This document shows, in pieces, positions 5,362 through 18,221 of a stretch of DNA of 64,000 nt. The notes beneath the pieces are model-generated. The model saw only the letters and a list, made by a program, of their open reading frames with translations, did not search any database and was not told the DNA's origin. Location of the stretch: assembly GCA_029547805.1 (NCBI GenBank), contig JAKPOP010000023.1, positions 1 through 64,000 of the forward strand, in the 5' to 3' direction. Every line of letters starts with the position of its first letter. The stretch's first letter is position 1. A program made the position numbers and the translations under genes. This DNA is from Deltaproteobacteria bacterium. GTDB lineage: Bacteria > Myxococcota_A > UBA9042 > DTJE01.

Positions 5362-6180
5362 ATGGCTGACCTCTCGAACGATGTCCAGGCGATGATCGAT
5401 GCTGCCAACGAGATGCTCGAGGCGGGGGAGTACGAGCAGGCCTGGATGCTCCTGTCCCGAATGGACCAGCAGGACCCGGAGAACCCCGAGATCCTGATCC
5501 TGATGGGCGACGCATCGATGCAGATGGGCGACCCCAACCAGGCCCTGGAACTGTTCGACCGTTGCGTTGACCTGGACCCCGAGTGGTCCGACGCCTGGTC
5601 CGCCCGGGCGGGCGCCCTGCTGGAACTGGCCCTGCTGGACGAGGCCGCCGAAAACCTCCGCAAGGCCCTCTCCCTGGACCGGACCAACCCCGAGGCTCTC
5701 TACCTGCGGGCCATGGTGCTGGAACTCCAGGGGCGCTTCCGGGAGGCCGACGCGGCCTACCGTCGGGCCCATCGAGCGGCCCCTGACCGGAACCGGATCC
5801 CCTTCCGGATGTCCTGGAAGGAGTTCTCCCAGACGGTTCAGGAGGCCCTGTGGCAGCTCCCGGCCCAGTTCCGGGAACGGATGGATGCCGCCGGGGTCGA
5901 GATCCGGATCCTGGACGTGCCGGATCCCCAGGCGATGCTGGAAAGCGGCCTCTCACCCCAGGTCCTCGGTGCCTTCCAGGGGGCCTCGGTGCTCGAGGAG
6001 TCCGTGACGAATCCCCAGTCGGCCCTGCCACCGATGATCCACCTCTACCAGCGGAACATCGAACGCGTCTGCGCCAACCGGGACGAGGTGCGGATGGAGA
6101 TCCAGGTGACCCTCTTCCACGAGGTGGGGCACTACTTCGGCCTGGGAGAAGACGACCTGGCCCACCTGAACCTGGACTGA
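5362..6180 (+). CDS. TPR protein with C-terminal zincin-like metallopeptidase domain
   Basis: 272 residues. Residues ~1-130 form tetratricopeptide-like helices. The C-terminal ~120 residues resemble the type I zincin-like metallopeptidase family (PF06262), with HEVGHYFGLGEDD at residues 253-265 supplying the HExxH zinc motif and the downstream glycine and acidic residues expected of that family. No signal peptide, so cytoplasmic. Function of the family is poorly known. TPRs may present substrates or partners. The last 49 bases overlap the convergent radical SAM gene. Confidence 0.82.
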   Translation: MADLSNDVQAMIDAANEMLEAGEYEQAWMLLSRMDQQDPENPEILILMGDASMQMGDPNQALELFDRCVDLDPEWSDAWSARAGALLELALLDEAAENLRKALSLDRTNPEALYLRAMVLELQGRFREADAAYRRAHRAAPDRNRIPFRMSWKEFSQTVQEALWQLPAQFRERMDAAGVEIRILDVPDPQAMLESGLSPQVLGAFQGASVLEESVTNPQSALPPMIHLYQRNIERVCANRDEVRMEIQVTLFHEVGHYFGLGEDDLAHLNLD

Positions 6181-7508
6181 TCGCGCCCCCTCGATGGCCC
6201 CGGCGTCCGAGGATCCGCGACCAGATGCCGGATGGCGGACCGCGCGGCCTCCAGTCCCAGGTGGGACCAGTGCCACTCCCGCTCGGCCTCCCGGGGCGAG
6301 GTGACCCGCAGGCGGGCCCGGCCCCCGACCTTCCGGGCCAGCAGGGACAGGCGACGGCGCAGGACCGGGACACCGGCGAAGGGGGCTCCCTCCAGCGGCG
6401 TGAACCGCTTCGGCACGAAGGGGGACACCGAGAGGGAGACCGAGACCCGCTCCGCCAGGGCCTCCACGAGCCGAGCCAGTTCCTCCACGTCCTGATCCTC
6501 TTCCCCCGGCAGGCCCACCATCGCGTAGATCTTGAGCCGGTTGAGGCGGTGGATGGCCGCCAGGTCCGCGCAGGCCCGAAGGTGGTCCTCGGTCACGCCC
6601 TTCCGGATGGCCCGGCGCATGCGTTCCGAGGGCCCGTCCGCCGCCACGGTCAGGGTCCGCAGCCCCGCGGCCGCCAGGGCCGAGACCAGGTCGGGGGTCG
6701 CCCGGTCGGCCCGGATCGACCCGAGGGTCACCTCGGCCCCGCGGGACTTCAGGGCATGCACCAGGTCCAGCAGTTCCGGATGGTCCGACACCGCGGCGCC
6801 CAGCAGGCCCACCCGGGTCGCATCTCGAGGCACGGCCTCCAGAATGCGGGTCGCCGGGACGAACCGGGCCCGGCCCCCGCCTCCCCGGGCCACGCAGAAG
6901 GTGCATGCCCTCGGGCATCCCCGCCCGACCTCCACGAGGAAGGCCCCACCGAACTCGTTGGGTTCCCCCGCGAGCCGGGACCGGACCGGGGGATCGGACG
7001 GCCCCGAGTGGACCGGCGACGGCACGGTCATCCCGATCGACGGGACCCAGACTCCCGGGATCCCCGCCAGGCGCTCCAGGGCATCCTGCCGATCTCGGGC
7101 CTCGTCCACCGCCTGCCGCAGCATCGGGAAGGCCTGGTCCGCCTCTCCCACGAAGACGGCGTCGGCCACCGCTCCCGCCAGGTCCGGGTTCGAGAGGGTC
7201 AGGGGACCGCCGGCGATGACCAGGGGGTCCGACCCGGGGCGATCGGCGGCAACCGCCGCGATCCCCGAGTCCCAGAGCGCCCGGACCCAGTCCTTCACCT
7301 CCAGTTCCCAGGCCACTGAGGTCCAGATCACCTGGAACTCCCCCAGGGACCGCCCGCTCTCGAGGCTGCGCACTGGACCAGCGCGCCCGGTCTCGGAGAG
7401 GCAGGCCCGCTCGACGGGCCCCAGGCCCGCGAAGGCAGCATGGAATCCCAGGGACGAATGGGCCAGGGACCTGGCGACGGGGGAGAAGAGGACCTGGTCC
7501 GAGGTCAT
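6132..7508 (-). CDS. Radical SAM protein with B12-binding-like N-terminal domain
   Basis: 458 residues. The first ~185 residues resemble a cobalamin-binding fold (LVIAGGPLTLSNPD and DAVFVGEADQ are typical late strands), although no DxHxxG cobalamin-histidine motif is visible. The radical SAM cluster motif CPRACTFC uses Cys198, Cys202 and Cys205, followed by the standard barrel (KIYAMVGLPGEED). It resembles uncharacterised families of B12/radical SAM proteins known from archaea and deltaproteobacteria. Start: ATG at 7508, coupled by an ATGA overlap to the upstream phospholipase-like gene. Substrate unknown. Cell location is cytoplasmic. Confidence 0.85.
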   Translation of the reverse strand: MTSDQVLFSPVARSLAHSSLGFHAAFAGLGPVERACLSETGRAGPVRSLESGRSLGEFQVIWTSVAWELEVKDWVRALWDSGIAAVAADRPGSDPLVIAGGPLTLSNPDLAGAVADAVFVGEADQAFPMLRQAVDEARDRQDALERLAGIPGVWVPSIGMTVPSPVHSGPSDPPVRSRLAGEPNEFGGAFLVEVGRGCPRACTFCVARGGGGRARFVPATRILEAVPRDATRVGLLGAAVSDHPELLDLVHALKSRGAEVTLGSIRADRATPDLVSALAAAGLRTLTVAADGPSERMRRAIRKGVTEDHLRACADLAAIHRLNRLKIYAMVGLPGEEDQDVEELARLVEALAERVSVSLSVSPFVPKRFTPLEGAPFAGVPVLRRRLSLLARKVGGRARLRVTSPREAEREWHWSHLGLEAARSAIRHLVADPRTPGPSRGRDQSRFRWARSSSPRPK

Positions 7509-12480: not shown

Positions 12481-12508
12481 TTGCCACAATCGCCAGGGTC
12501 CGTAGAAT
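12481..12508 (+). promoter_or_regulatory. Candidate sigma-70 promoter of the radical SAM array
   Basis: TTGCCA (12481-12486), 16-bp spacer, TAGAAT (12503-12508). Start of transcription would fall near 12515, about 20 nt before the first radical SAM ATG at 12534. The same -10 hexamer is used by the tRNA-Gly promoter in this window. Predicted by eye. Confidence 0.5.
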
Positions 12509-12533: not shown

Positions 12534-13595
12534 ATGAAGCCGACGGTTCCCGAGCGATCGGAGATGCCTCTCCCCGGGACCTCCCGGGTCGGGGACCGCC
12601 TCCACGTCTGCGTCGGCTACGTCTGCAACAACAACTGCGTCTTCTGCATGGAGGACGACCGGGCGGCCCGACGACGCCGGCTGGAGGCCCAGACCCCCGA
12701 GGACGTCCGGCGCATGATGACGATGGACCCCGATGCCCGGGAGGTGATGTTCACGTCCGGCGAGCCGACCACCCATCCCCTGCTCCCGGCCTACATCCGC
12801 ATGGCCCGGGATCTGGGTTTCCCGGTCGTCGGGCTGATCACCAACGGGCGGCGGCTGGCCTACCGTCCCTACGCCCGGGAACTGCTCGAGGCGGGTCTGA
12901 ACCACGTGCTGGTGAGCATCCACGGTCCCAACGCGAAGATCCACGACATGCTGACCCGCAGCAAGGGCGCCTTCGTCCAGGCCTGCACGGGCCTCGCAAA
13001 CCTCGCCGTGCTCCGGGAGGAGTTCCCGGACCTGAAGGTCCACACGTCCTACGTCGTCAATTCATACAACTACAAATACTTCCTGGATTTCTATCAGGCC
13101 ATGGCCCCGCTGCGGGTGGACCAGCACGTCTTCAACGTGATGATGCCCGATGGCCGAGGCGGGAGGCACATGGAGTCCCTGATGGCCCGTTATGCCGACA
13201 TCGCCGCCGAGTTCCGCCGGTTCGTCGAGGCCCTGCCGCCCGAGGGCGTCGCCAAGGTCTTCCTGCTGGACATCCCCTACTGCACCACCACGGCGCTGCC
13301 GGACCCGGTCCGGGGCTACGTGGAACGATATTTCCACTACGAGCCCGACGGGGAGGTGGGGTTCCCGACGGTGCCTCCTGGAGAGACGGGGGACCTGCTC
13401 CAGGAGGGCGCCCTGGACGGGGAACAGACGCGCTACACCCGGGTCGCCAAGAGCGCCCATGACGCGGCGATGCGGGTGAAGCGCCCCGAGTGCGCCTCCT
13501 GCGGATTCGACGCCGTCTGTCGAGGGGTCTTTCGAAGTTACGTCGATCGGTTCGGCTGGGACGAGTTCGTCCCGGTGACCGGGAAAGGGGTGTGA
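12534..13595 (+). CDS. Radical SAM protein, array member 1
   Basis: 353 residues. Cluster motif CNNNCVFC (Cys31, Cys35, Cys38), glycine motif SGEPT, and a C-terminal auxiliary cysteine motif CASCGFDAVC (CxxCx5C) of twitch/SPASM type followed by YVDRFGWDEF. A PYC motif near residue 250 is shared with member 2. The start at 12534 is preferred over an in-frame upstream ATG at 12450, because the predicted promoter lies between them and the cluster motif is then at the usual distance. First of four paralogues on one strand. Likely a peptide- or small-molecule-modifying enzyme with an extra Fe-S cluster; substrate unknown. Confidence 0.85.
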   Translation: MKPTVPERSEMPLPGTSRVGDRLHVCVGYVCNNNCVFCMEDDRAARRRRLEAQTPEDVRRMMTMDPDAREVMFTSGEPTTHPLLPAYIRMARDLGFPVVGLITNGRRLAYRPYARELLEAGLNHVLVSIHGPNAKIHDMLTRSKGAFVQACTGLANLAVLREEFPDLKVHTSYVVNSYNYKYFLDFYQAMAPLRVDQHVFNVMMPDGRGGRHMESLMARYADIAAEFRRFVEALPPEGVAKVFLLDIPYCTTTALPDPVRGYVERYFHYEPDGEVGFPTVPPGETGDLLQEGALDGEQTRYTRVAKSAHDAAMRVKRPECASCGFDAVCRGVFRSYVDRFGWDEFVPVTGKGV

Positions 13596-13599
13596 CGGC

Positions 13600-14562
13600 A
13601 TGGCAACCGAGGACCGGCGCACGGAACGGGTGGACATCAAGACCGGCTGGAACTGCAACAACCGGTGCGTCTTCTGTGTCCAGGGCAACAAGCGGGCGAA
13701 GTTCGGCAACAAGCCCACCGAGGAGGTCAAGCGCCTGCTGGAGGAGGCCCGCCGGGACAGCGACAGCATCGTCTTCACCGGCGGCGAGGTCACGATCCGC
13801 CCGGACCTGGTGGAACTGGTGCGATACGCCCGGGACCTGGGCTACACCAGCATCCAGATCCAGACCAACGGTCGCATGCTGGCCTACCGGAAGGTCTGCG
13901 AGGACCTGATCGCCGCCGGTGCCAACGAGTTCAGCCCGGCCCTCCACGGTCACACGCCGGAACTGCACGACTACCTCACGTGCAGCCAGGGGGCCTTCCG
14001 GCAGACCGTCAAGGCCATCCGCAACCTGAAGGAACTGGGCCAGTACGTGCTGACCAACTCGGTGGTCACCCGGTCGAACTACCGCACGCTGCCGGAACTG
14101 GCCTCCCTGCTGGTGGCCCTCGGAGTGGACCAGTTCCAGCTGGCCTTCGTGCATCCCCTGGGCACCGCTGGCGAGAACTTCTACGCGGTGGTTCCCCGCC
14201 TCTCCCTCTGCGAGCCCTACGTCCACAAGGCCCTCGACATCGGCATCGCCGCCGGACGACGGGTGATGACCGAGGCGATTCCCTACTGCTTCATGGTCGG
14301 CTACGAGCCCTGGATCGCCGAGCGGATCATGCCCCGGACCAAGATCTTCGAGGGGCACCTGACCATCGCGGACTACACCGAGCACCGCCTGACCGAGGGG
14401 AAGGCCAAGGGGCCCCCCTGCGAGGCATGCGCCTTCAAGGGTCTCTGCGAGGGCCCATGGCGGGAGTACCCTGAGCACTACGGCTGGGACGAGTTCGTGA
14501 CCCGGAAGGACCTCTCGGGAGCCCACCCCGCGACCTTCCAGGTTCGGGGGAGCCCGGCATGA
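13600..14562 (+). CDS. Radical SAM protein, array member 2
   Basis: 320 residues. Cluster motif CNNRCVFC (Cys19, Cys23, Cys26), FTGGEVTIRPD glycine motif, IPYCFMVGYEPW in the second half, and C-terminal CEACAFKGLC (CxxCx5C) followed by YPEHYGWDEF. The C-terminal tail closely parallels member 1, so the two arose by duplication. It starts 4 bases after member 1 and overlaps member 3 by 4 bases. Function unknown beyond radical SAM chemistry with a probable auxiliary cluster. Confidence 0.85.
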   Translation: MATEDRRTERVDIKTGWNCNNRCVFCVQGNKRAKFGNKPTEEVKRLLEEARRDSDSIVFTGGEVTIRPDLVELVRYARDLGYTSIQIQTNGRMLAYRKVCEDLIAAGANEFSPALHGHTPELHDYLTCSQGAFRQTVKAIRNLKELGQYVLTNSVVTRSNYRTLPELASLLVALGVDQFQLAFVHPLGTAGENFYAVVPRLSLCEPYVHKALDIGIAAGRRVMTEAIPYCFMVGYEPWIAERIMPRTKIFEGHLTIADYTEHRLTEGKAKGPPCEACAFKGLCEGPWREYPEHYGWDEFVTRKDLSGAHPATFQVRGSPA

Positions 14563-15953
14563 CCTCGCTGGATTCCCTCCGGGCCCGGCAGGAGGCCGTC
14601 GGCGAGCAGCGCCTGTGGGTCCGCCTGACCCGGGCCTGCAACAACCGCTGCCTCTTCTGTCACGACGTCGGGGCCCAGAACGGGACGATCGTCCCCGAGG
14701 AGGAGGTGCTGGCGCGGCTCCGGGAGGGTCGTGCCCGGGGCTGCACCCGGGCCATCCTCAGCGGCGGGGAGCCCACGATCCACCCGCGGTTCCTGGACCT
14801 GGTGGCCGCGGCCACCGGGATGGGCTACAGCTGGGTCCAGTGCGTCTCGAACGGGCGCATGTTCGCCTACCCGAAGTTCGCGGCCCGGGCCGTCGCCGCG
14901 GGGCTCCGGGAGGCCACCCTCTCGATGCACGACCATACGCCCCAGGTCTTCGAGGAACTGGTGGGCGTCTCGGGGGCCCATGCCCAGTCCCTCCAGGGCC
15001 TCCGGAACCTGCTGCGCCTGGGGGTGGTGGTGTCGGTGGACGTCGTGCTGAACCGCCGAAACCTGCCCCACCTCAAGGAACTGCTGGAGTTCTACGTGAA
15101 CGAGGGCGTGCTGGAGTTCGACCTCCTGCACCTGATCCCCTTCGGCCGAGGCTTCGACGACCACCGGGAGGCCCTGTTCCCCGAGCCGGAAATGGTTGCC
15201 CGGGAACTCCACCGGGCCCTCGACTGGGCCCGGACCGTGCCCGGGATCTTCCTGTGGACCAACCGCCTCCCCATCGAGTTGCTCGAGGGCCACGAGGACC
15301 TCTTCCAGGACCCCCATAAGATCTACGACGAGGTCCTGGGCGAGCGGGAGTCCTTCCGGGCCCTCTTCCGGGACGGCACGCCGCCCGAGTGCGAAGGCCC
15401 CCGGTGTCCCCACTGCTTCCTCCGGCCCTTCTGCGAGGAGGCCCGGGCCACCGCGACCCGCCTTCGGGACCCGCGGCGAGCCCGGGCGAAGGCCGTGGAC
15501 GATGGCCCCGGTCCGAGGCCCCTGGAGGTGACGGCGGCCTTCTGCCGGGAGGCCGCAGGGATGTCCGACGAGGCCCTGCACGGCCGGGTTCCCGACCGAT
15601 GGGCCCTCCCGGCCCCCGAGTCCCTGACGGAGGCCCTGGAGGTCCTGCCGCCCCTGGCGGAGGTCCAGGCCCTGTCCCGCCGCCTGGGGCGACCGGTCCA
15701 GGGCCTCCCGGCGTGCCTGGGGGGTCCTCGGCCCCTTCCTGGAGGCGAGGATGACGCCCTCGCCTTCCAACCGCCCGATGGCGAACCCCTCTCGGAACGT
15801 CATCTCCCGGACTTCATCGCCCACTTCATCCGGCACCGCTACCGGGTCAAGAGCCTGCGGTGTCGCACCTGTCGCCTCGATGCCCTGTGCCGGGGCCTCC
15901 CGGTCCATGCAGCCCGCATCTGGGGCCTCGGCGTCCTTCAACCGGAGCAGTGA
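14559..15953 (+). CDS. Radical SAM protein, array member 3, with extended C-terminus
   Basis: 464 residues, the longest of the four. Cluster motif CNNRCLFC (Cys27, Cys31, Cys34) and LSGGEPTIHP. It carries two CxxCx5C motifs, CPHCFLRPFC in the middle and CRTCRLDALC near the C-terminus, separated by ~130 residues that the other members lack. The PxC motif seen in the other three is replaced by LPIELLEGHED. Overlap of ATGA with member 2 and a 2-base gap to member 4 indicate one polycistronic message. It may bind two auxiliary clusters or act as a platform for the others; that is inference. Confidence 0.83.
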   Translation: MTSLDSLRARQEAVGEQRLWVRLTRACNNRCLFCHDVGAQNGTIVPEEEVLARLREGRARGCTRAILSGGEPTIHPRFLDLVAAATGMGYSWVQCVSNGRMFAYPKFAARAVAAGLREATLSMHDHTPQVFEELVGVSGAHAQSLQGLRNLLRLGVVVSVDVVLNRRNLPHLKELLEFYVNEGVLEFDLLHLIPFGRGFDDHREALFPEPEMVARELHRALDWARTVPGIFLWTNRLPIELLEGHEDLFQDPHKIYDEVLGERESFRALFRDGTPPECEGPRCPHCFLRPFCEEARATATRLRDPRRARAKAVDDGPGPRPLEVTAAFCREAAGMSDEALHGRVPDRWALPAPESLTEALEVLPPLAEVQALSRRLGRPVQGLPACLGGPRPLPGGEDDALAFQPPDGEPLSERHLPDFIAHFIRHRYRVKSLRCRTCRLDALCRGLPVHAARIWGLGVLQPEQ

Positions 15954-15955
15954 CC

Positions 15956-16888
15956 GTGGCGAACCTGGGCTACATCCAAGTGACGCGCCTGTGCAACCAG
16001 AAGTGCCGGATCTGCAGCAACCCCGAGCGGGAGGCCACCCTGAGCCTGGAAGAGGCCTTCCGGATGATCGACGACTTCCAGGCCCGGGGATATGACGGGG
16101 TGATCCTGACCGGCGGGGAACCGACCCTCCACGAGGGCATCCCCGAGATGCTGACCCACGCCCGGGAACGGGGGCTCCATGCCCGGATGATCACGAACGG
16201 CCAGCGGCTGGCGGACCGGGACCTGATGCAGCGCTACGTCGCGGCGGGGCTGAACCACCTCCACGTGTCGATCCTGTCCCCGGACCCGGAGGTGCAGGCC
16301 TTTCTGACCTGCAACGAGGCGAGCCTCGATCGGGCCTTCCGGACCATCGAGAATGCCGGGGCCCTGGGCGTGAACGTGGACGTGAACACCCCCATCAACC
16401 ACTACAACGCGAAGGACCTGGACCGGCTGGTCCGCCTGATCGTGGACCGCTTTCCCTTCGTGCGGCACTTCGTCTGGAACAATCTGGACCCCAGCATGAA
16501 CCGGGCCGCCCAGAACCCCGACGTGATCCACCACCTCTGGGAGTTCGAGGTCTCCCTGTTCCGGGCCATGACCTTCCTGCAGTCCACCGGCAGGACCTTC
16601 CGGGCCGAGAAGGTCCCCCTGTGCTACATGGCCGAGTTCGCCTGGGCCTCCACCGAGACCCGAAAGATCGTCAAGGGCGAGGAGCGGATCGTCCGTTTCC
16701 TGGACGAGAAGGGGATGGTCCGGGAGACGGCCTTCCGCCACGGCAAGGCCGAGGCCTGCTCCCGGTGCACCTTCGACCCCATCTGCGCCGGCCTCTTCGA
16801 CATGGACGTACACTACTCCTCCAGCGAGTTGTTCCCGGTCTTCCTGGACCCGGAACCGGTCCGGCAGCGCATCCTGTCGGAGGACTGA
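15956..16888 (+). CDS. Radical SAM protein, array member 4
   Basis: 310 residues from a GTG at 15956, 2 bases after the stop of member 3, with GGAG upstream in that gene. Choosing this GTG places the cluster motif CNQKCRIC at Cys13, Cys17, Cys20, in line with the short N-termini of radical SAM enzymes. An in-frame ATG at 15860 would add a proline-rich leader inside the previous gene and is rejected. LTGGEPTLHEG, VPLCYMAEFAW and C-terminal CSRCTFDPIC (CxxCx5C) match members 1 and 2. Last of the array. Product unknown. Confidence 0.83.
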   Translation: MANLGYIQVTRLCNQKCRICSNPEREATLSLEEAFRMIDDFQARGYDGVILTGGEPTLHEGIPEMLTHARERGLHARMITNGQRLADRDLMQRYVAAGLNHLHVSILSPDPEVQAFLTCNEASLDRAFRTIENAGALGVNVDVNTPINHYNAKDLDRLVRLIVDRFPFVRHFVWNNLDPSMNRAAQNPDVIHHLWEFEVSLFRAMTFLQSTGRTFRAEKVPLCYMAEFAWASTETRKIVKGEERIVRFLDEKGMVRETAFRHGKAEACSRCTFDPICAGLFDMDVHYSSSELFPVFLDPEPVRQRILSED

Positions 16889-16925
16889 CGGGCCGGCCGC
16901 GGCATCGGGGACGGCGGGAGGCGGC

Positions 16926-18221
16926 ATGGACCTGGAGACCATCCCCCGGGTGGCGGCGGTGCTGCTGGCGGGGGTCTGCGCCCTGACCGACTGGGCCCGG
17001 CACAAGATCTACCACAAGGTGCTGCTGGCGGGGCTGGCGGTCTGGGCGATCTGGATGCCGGCCTTCGCCCTCTGGCACCACCTCGGCGCCGAAGATTCCA
17101 TCCGGGCCTTCCCCGAACTGGGCACCTGGTGGTGGGAGGACCCGGCGCCTCCCCCGCGCCCCCCCGACCAGGCCCCCTCCCCCTTCGATCGTGGCCGCCA
17201 GGAGTCCCTCTGGGACCGACAGGACGACGGGAGCCGTCCCGGGGACACGCCCGAGGCCCGGACGGAACAGGCCTCACCGCGCCTGCTTCCGTGGCTGGCC
17301 CGGGTCCTGGCCAACGGCGCCCTGGCCTTCCTGGTGGGGTTCGGGCTCTGGTGGGGCGGCCTCTGGGCGGCCGGCGACGCGAAGTTGTTTGCCGTGCTGG
17401 TGCTGCTGATTCCCCTCTCGACCTACCGGAACGCCTTCTGGCCCTTCTTTCCCGGCTACGTGCTGCTGTTCAATACCTTCTTCTCGGTGATGGCCCTGCT
17501 GGCCGTCGAACTGGTCGCCCGGGGCATCCGGCAGGCCGTCCGGCCGACCCCCGACGAGGCCGACGCCTGGCGCGACGCCTGGCGATGGCTCCGGGGACAC
17601 GTCCAGGAACTGGCCATCGGGTTCGTGGGCATTCTGTTCCTGTTCCTGGCCATCAAGACCCTCCGGGGGCTGACCCGGGACCTGCTGACCGAAATCACCC
17701 CCCTCCGGAGCGGCACCCTGATCTACTTCCTGCTCTTCCTGATCTTCACGCCCCTGACCCGCTGGATGCGCCGGTGGTATGTCGGCATCCCCGTCGGGGT
17801 GGCCGTGACGGCCTACATCGTCCATGCCGCGATCTGGCCCACCGATCAACACAACCTCAGGTCCATCCTGACCATGAGCGGCTGGGCGGTGGGGGTGATC
17901 CTCTTCCTGGTCATCTACCGACTCTATCTGGCGGTCTTCGATTTCCGATCCATTGGCGTCTGGCAACTGGAGGCCCGGATGATCCCGGCCCGGCGGACGC
18001 TGGAGGTCCTCAAGGAGGACATGGACCTGGTCCGGGAGAAGATGGGCCCCGTTGGCCCCGACGGCCTGACTGCGGTGCAGGCCGAGGTCCTGCGCCGCTG
18101 GTGGATCGACAAGGGCAAGGGCGGACGCATCCACGTCGCCAAGACCTTCCCCTTCGCCCCGGCCCTCTTCGTCGGCACGGTCCTGACCGTCTGGTTCGGC
18201 GGCTACCTGGTCCGGGTCTAG
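16926..18221 (+). CDS. A24 prepilin-peptidase-like integral membrane protein
   Basis: 431 residues. The two catalytic aspartates of the A24 family are present: Asp22 in LTDWARHKI, equivalent to the usual DlrxrxIPN loop, and Asp151 in WAAGDAKLF, the conserved GDxK. Between them is an 80-residue Pro/Asp/Arg-rich insert (~60-120), and after them a ~270-residue extension with several more membrane segments that ordinary CpaA/TadV enzymes lack. GGGAGGC precedes the ATG. The gene is 37 bases behind the radical SAM array on the same strand, so it may be co-transcribed. Family members cleave leader peptides of pilins. No pilin gene lies nearby. The last 4 bases overlap the convergent nucleotidase. 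Confidence 0.75.
   Translation: MDLETIPRVAAVLLAGVCALTDWARHKIYHKVLLAGLAVWAIWMPAFALWHHLGAEDSIRAFPELGTWWWEDPAPPPRPPDQAPSPFDRGRQESLWDRQDDGSRPGDTPEARTEQASPRLLPWLARVLANGALAFLVGFGLWWGGLWAAGDAKLFAVLVLLIPLSTYRNAFWPFFPGYVLLFNTFFSVMALLAVELVARGIRQAVRPTPDEADAWRDAWRWLRGHVQELAIGFVGILFLFLAIKTLRGLTRDLLTEITPLRSGTLIYFLLFLIFTPLTRWMRRWYVGIPVGVAVTAYIVHAAIWPTDQHNLRSILTMSGWAVGVILFLVIYRLYLAVFDFRSIGVWQLEARMIPARRTLEVLKEDMDLVREKMGPVGPDGLTAVQAEVLRRWWIDKGKGGRIHVAKTFPFAPALFVGTVLTVWFGGYLVRV

Follow-up and report, generated by a model that had tools for sequence, protein, structure and literature searches.

A conserved operon of four HxsC-like radical SAM genes and a FlaK-like membrane protease gene, probably a detached module of the HXS peptide-modification system

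The stretch of DNA analysed here, referred to as the window, is 64,000 nt of contig C11 in an assembly of 4.08 Mb and 32 contigs. A run of five genes on the forward strand was confirmed at 12534-18221, and the gene calls agree with the initial annotation, which had described four tandem radical SAM genes with an A24-like membrane protease gene 37 nt behind them. The radical SAM genes, designated RS1 to RS4, are at 12534-13595, 13600-14562, 14559-15953 and 15956-16888, with a gap of 4 nt between RS1 and RS2, an overlap of 4 nt between RS2 and RS3, and a gap of 2 nt before RS4, which starts with GTG. The A24-like gene is at 16926-18221. The single candidate promoter previously placed in front of the run was recovered as a TTGCCA-16-TAGAAT site at 12481-12508, on the same strand and preceding RS1; it has 10/12 matches in a consensus scan (0.2 expected in shuffles), a match that does not in itself indicate function. 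Rfam and tRNA scans found nothing except a tRNA-Gly. A further radical SAM gene is located outside the array, approximately 5 kb upstream on the minus strand (6132-7508).

All four enzymes pass the cut-off for the Pfam Radical_SAM domain (PF04055), and each contains a CxxxCxxC motif and one C-terminal CxxCx5C motif, or two in the case of RS3 (residues 283 and 435). The SPASM Pfam domain was not matched by RS1-RS4 at E 0.01, though the auxiliary-cluster CxxCx5C motif occurs in all of them; their placement among the twitch/SPASM enzymes is thus only putative. The nearest named family is HxsC4 (NCBIfam NF038332) for RS1 (335 bits, E 5e-100), RS2 (165 bits) and RS3 (97.5 bits), and HxsC (TIGR03977) for RS4 (87 bits). 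However, the curated cut-offs are missed by all, as HxsC4 requires 500 bits and the HxsC scores of 69-101 bits, the highest for RS2, are below the 268 required. None of the four was assigned to a known tRNA or cofactor pathway. The enzymes are diverged paralogues with about 26-31 % pairwise identity. In a cross-phylum tree each type is grouped apart, with support of 100 for RS4, 99 for RS1 and 84 for RS2, while the grouping of RS3 requires two changes. Therefore, judged from this tree, RS1-RS4 are ancient, distinct HxsC-like types and not recent duplicates.

According to its AF2 model (pLDDT 78.6), the fifth protein is a membrane enzyme of the prepilin-peptidase (FlaK-like) type, as had been proposed. 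Plain Foldseek against the PDB gave no significant match, and a search for PDB sequences with the A3 profile came back empty. However, when the Foldseek candidates were re-aligned using VIA-align 2, FlaK (3S0X) was recovered with a Z of 13.0 and an rmsd of 3.2 over 170 residues, versus 4.9 for the next row. D22 and G150-D151-x-K153 are invariant in two alignments, each containing 17 relatives, and the motif around the second Asp reads WAAGDAK, which is not a strict GxGD. The window protein was unmatched by PF01478 at E 0.01; its relative in genome G014 passes (31.1 bits vs 26.5). There is one Cys, at residue 18. The cytoplasmic CxxC pairs of PilD-type enzymes are thus absent, and with them a Zn-type methyltransferase motif. 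Two features of the initial annotation needed to be revised. The 'long insert' (approximately residues 87-115) is a variable, proline-rich linker that is modelled with low confidence or disordered and is missing in several relatives, and the '~270-residue extension' consists of extra membrane helices and a C-terminal part that is itself covered by the match to FlaK.

The order RS1-RS2-RS3-RS4-A24 is kept in all 11 untruncated loci, which range from the genus of the window up to its order and have varying flanks; two additional loci are cut off by contig ends. This recurrence of the block, which the initial annotation had listed as a check to be made, is far beyond chance, and within its family the array always includes the A24 gene. 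The A24-like protein was present in 18 of 36 relatives, including almost every member of the window's family, and in just 20 of 284 genomes sampled from its phylum. In more distant genomes, RS2-RS3-RS4-A24 is retained at one locus (L036), and RS4-A24 is retained at L033, L034 and L035 as well as at a number of loci from other phyla. The nearest named records are Myxococcota metagenome assemblies.

Components of the His-Xaa-Ser (HXS) system were found elsewhere in the window's genome. It encodes HxsB (TIGR03978; 543.9 bits, cut-off 370), HxsD (TIGR03976; 51.8 bits when the genome was searched and 50.1 for the protein itself, barely reaching the cut-off of 50) and an HxsD-like protein (61.6 bits, cut-off 41). 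These genes share one locus on contig C9, where one of the two HxsD-type proteins is long and the other short, and where a fifth HxsC-like radical SAM enzyme is also encoded. The precursor, which the initial annotation had expected to be encoded elsewhere or to be very small, was identified on contig C10 (G000:C10:47333-47590) as an HxsA4-type peptide of 85 aa that ends in (HGS)n-W and has the sequence MATRLPVFKKRLQDFLSSEEGKITRGQAAAVGSFLLMAGASGHALA...EQHCSHGS...HGSW. Its score against the HxsA4 profile (47.8 bits) is under the cut-off of 55, which is passed by the precursors of G007, G020 and L111. HxsA, the HXS core and the array each lie on a different one of three contigs, and no physical linkage was seen in this genome. 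Of the substrates suggested in the initial annotation, a leader-bearing peptide encoded elsewhere in the genome is probably correct. A pilin-like substrate is not supported, as the partner found genome-wide is a His-Xaa-Ser repeat peptide, accompanied by HxsB and HxsD.

HxsA is flanked on one side by a conserved gene of about 190 residues and on the other by ccmE/ccmF (L205:6616-10885), and these neighbours are kept in about 10 genomes of family f1. The number of HXS repeats was 7 in the window's genome, 16 in a sister genome and 32 in G005 (L154, L153). Either the count varies between genomes or it is collapsed by assembly.

A scan with RS4, the most widespread member, identified 274 related loci, in groups that include Myxococcota, Elusimicrobia, Spirochaetes, Omnitrophota and Azambacteria, and in a Bdellovibrio-labelled MAG. 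Among the 80 loci kept for neighbourhood counts, HxsB was found within about 10 kb at 25, and an ORF with a His-Gly-Ser repeat run at 20. Array members are physically linked with HXS genes at L131, L135, L083, L085 and L111. In G014 (L131), the RS1-RS4 array adjoins HxsD-HxsD-HxsB in divergent orientation, and at loci of Spirochaetes, Azambacteria and Elusimicrobia, RS2, RS4 or A24 are accompanied by HxsB and HxsD genes. No such linkage was found in the window's genome or in family f1. HxsB scored above its cut-off in all 26 of the RS4-bearing genomes tested vs 0 of 14 control genomes. Six of the 36 relatives (G016, G019, G023, G024, G026 and G035) lack HxsB; the peptidase is absent from these too, and no HGS-type repeat array was found in them. 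One genome, G062, contains A24 and HxsB, yet has no (HXS)n match.

Some RS4-related loci include other gene types. At L062:4707-9006, NifH and two nitrogenase-component-1-like proteins (identified using Pfam) are directly upstream of RS2/RS4 homologues, and similar nitrogenase-like sets, judged by N-terminal sequence, were seen at L051, L091, L107, L097:1696-3675, where NifH is fused to RS3, and L219, where the set is beside HxsD-HxsB-HxsA, which ties a nitrogenase-like reductase to HXS genes. At Elusimicrobia-type loci (L089:11468-12733; L056, L069, L070 and L075), RS4 is fused to RS3, and a peptide beta-hydroxylase of the aKG-HExxH type (confirmed for L089) follows, replacing A24. A ferredoxin-like gene of 73 residues is directly 3' of RS4 at seven loci, e.g. 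L077:7049-7270.

The array could belong in the HXS family tree but work on another, unseen substrate, with HXS genomes simply keeping several radical SAM arrays. We consider this unlikely, as array members are directly linked to HxsB, HxsD or HxsA in several phyla, HxsB accompanies RS4 in every RS4-bearing genome tested and the leader motif of HxsA tracks the peptidase (see below), although there are about 70 radical SAM matches in the window's genome, family f1 shows no linkage among the loci of HxsA, the HXS core and the array, and some RS4 homologues have nitrogenase-like or ferredoxin genes as neighbours but no HXS gene nearby.

The leaders of the HxsA precursors conform roughly to LPxFKKxxxxFLSSEEGK. 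SEEGK was found in the leader in 25 of 25 genomes that have the A24-like protein and a readable precursor vs 1 of 29 genomes without the protein, the sole exception being G004, which is 82 % complete and belongs to the window's family. A hydrophobic segment follows the motif in 25/25 of the genomes with A24, and 4/29 of those without it score as hydrophobic (Fisher p ~1e-11 for hydrophobicity, kinship ignored). Five genomes with A24 that were reached via other loci and examined after the hypothesis had been formed all had the predicted leader (5/5), and a sixth, G063, fits too. In G047, an Elusimicrobia-type genome without A24, the motif is altered to SEEAK. On the HxsB tree, the SEEGK-A24 association is represented by three independent contrasts on well-supported branches (four on all branches), all concordant; the sign test gives p 0.25 on the well-supported branches, and three or four contrasts cannot reach significance. 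The association is therefore suggestive support for leader trimming. Tree tests for hydrophobicity yielded just one or two contrasts and lack power.

A hydrophobic leader was rejected as the sole predictor of A24 because it is too loose, with G047, G054 and G055 scoring as hydrophobic without A24. In G055, the hydrophobic stretch is not at the usual leader position, and the HxsA leader of G054 (L107:6723-7103) includes a Tat-like TRRDLV motif. TRG-Q is doubtful as a universal cleavage site, as the Gly is replaced in G013, G020, G027, G030, G033 and G060. A point against leader cleavage is the acidic EE that precedes the Gly of SEEG, since known substrates have positively charged leaders. In family f1, the hydrophobic segment ends in ALA, a possible signal peptidase I site.

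This last feature would suit a different role for the A24-like protein, be it structural, in export or in another HXS step, with the HxsA segment removed by signal peptidase I or left uncut. The persistence of the hydrophobic segment without A24 in G047 and, in Tat-like form, in G054 points the same way. However, D22 and G150-D151-x-K153 are invariant in the 17 relatives of each of the two alignments, and A24 is tracked by SEEGK, not by hydrophobicity alone, so that such a role appears improbable. Least probable is that the protein acts as a prepilin peptidase, serving pili or type II secretion, and that the radical SAM enzymes modify pilins: the A24/FlaK fold would allow it, and in G014 an RS4-A24 pair immediately precedes an operon for type II secretion (secretin, T2SSE, T2SSF and T2SSG; C125, L033:211-10210), but the window's genome (on C23) and G014 each encode a separate canonical A24 prepilin peptidase, the other A24 loci read show no constant pilin neighbour, though pilin-like genes are near L111, and the single Cys leaves no Zn-type methyltransferase motif. 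The canonical peptidase of G014 also led us to reject type II secretion as a general role for A24.

The presence of HxsB, HxsD, a fifth HxsC-like enzyme and HxsA in the genome, together with the linkage in other phyla, therefore favours the reading that the operon is a detached module of the HXS peptide-modification system, with the FlaK-like protease cutting the HxsA leader. We assign this reading a probability of roughly 0.68. The array is judged to be a real, new variant of this predicted system, in which an intramembrane aspartyl protease probably serves as the leader peptidase. In the proposed sequence of events, HxsB and the HxsC-like RS1-RS4 would act in turn on HxsA, probably on the (HGS)n core, and HxsA would then insert into the membrane through its hydrophobic segment. 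The protease would cut the leader at the cytoplasmic face of the membrane, most likely after the Gly of SEEG-K or at the nearby TRG-Q, and the modified repeat peptide would be released at or across the membrane, as a membrane-bound or exported product. FlaK cleaves its substrate after a conserved Gly preceding a hydrophobic helix (PMC4985597) and is, by analogy, the model for this cut. With the small number of independent contrasts taken into account, trimming of the HxsA leader is rated as a likely candidate activity of the FlaK-like protein. A more specific version, in which a presenilin/FlaK-type intramembrane aspartyl protease is the dedicated HxsA leader peptidase (SEEG-K) and follows up to six radical SAM enzymes (HxsB, the fifth HxsC-like enzyme and RS1-RS4) acting on one (His-Gly-Ser)n core, is put forward tentatively, as about equally likely to be right or wrong. 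The analysis connects four more types of HxsC-like enzyme, and a membrane protease, with the HXS system; it also names the HxsA precursor in the same genome and makes a sharp prediction, namely cleavage in the SEEGK-hydrophobic leader.

The HXS system (NCBIfam HxsA4, HxsB, HxsC4 and HxsD) was reportedly predicted by Haft and Basu. It is a proposal from genome mining that, to our knowledge, still awaits characterisation. Haft and Basu are cited for HxsB and HxsC in PMC9062424, and no paper on the product or modification chemistry of HXS was found in the open literature searched. The window's genome shares with the system HxsB, HxsD and a precursor consisting of a leader plus (HXS)n, and the array enzymes are nearest to HxsC4/HxsC. 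It differs in having four additional HxsC-like enzymes, of types that separated anciently, in one operon with a dedicated FlaK-type peptidase, in having its parts spread over three contigs and in that RS1-RS4 are under the HxsC/HxsC4 cut-offs. The protease resembles FlaK, the archaeal preflagellin peptidase, in its fold (170 of 186 residues of 3S0X, including the C-terminal part), two invariant Asp and GDxK. However, it is bacterial, has about 430 residues and a variable linker, and carries additional membrane helices that separate its GDxK helix from the C-terminal part; its proposed substrate is a modified repeat peptide, not archaellin. Known RiPP leader peptidases are Cys, Ser and metalloproteases, including the intramembrane M50 protease EpeP. 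A review of RiPP leader proteases from 2023 (PMC10885120) contains none of the terms 'aspartic', 'aspartyl', 'A24' and 'prepilin'. The window protease would, like the known enzymes, remove the leader from a peptide, here one modified by radical SAM enzymes, but is of the aspartic GxGD class; if this is correct, a protease class would be added to the maturation of peptide natural products, and the product would be placed at the membrane or outside the cell.
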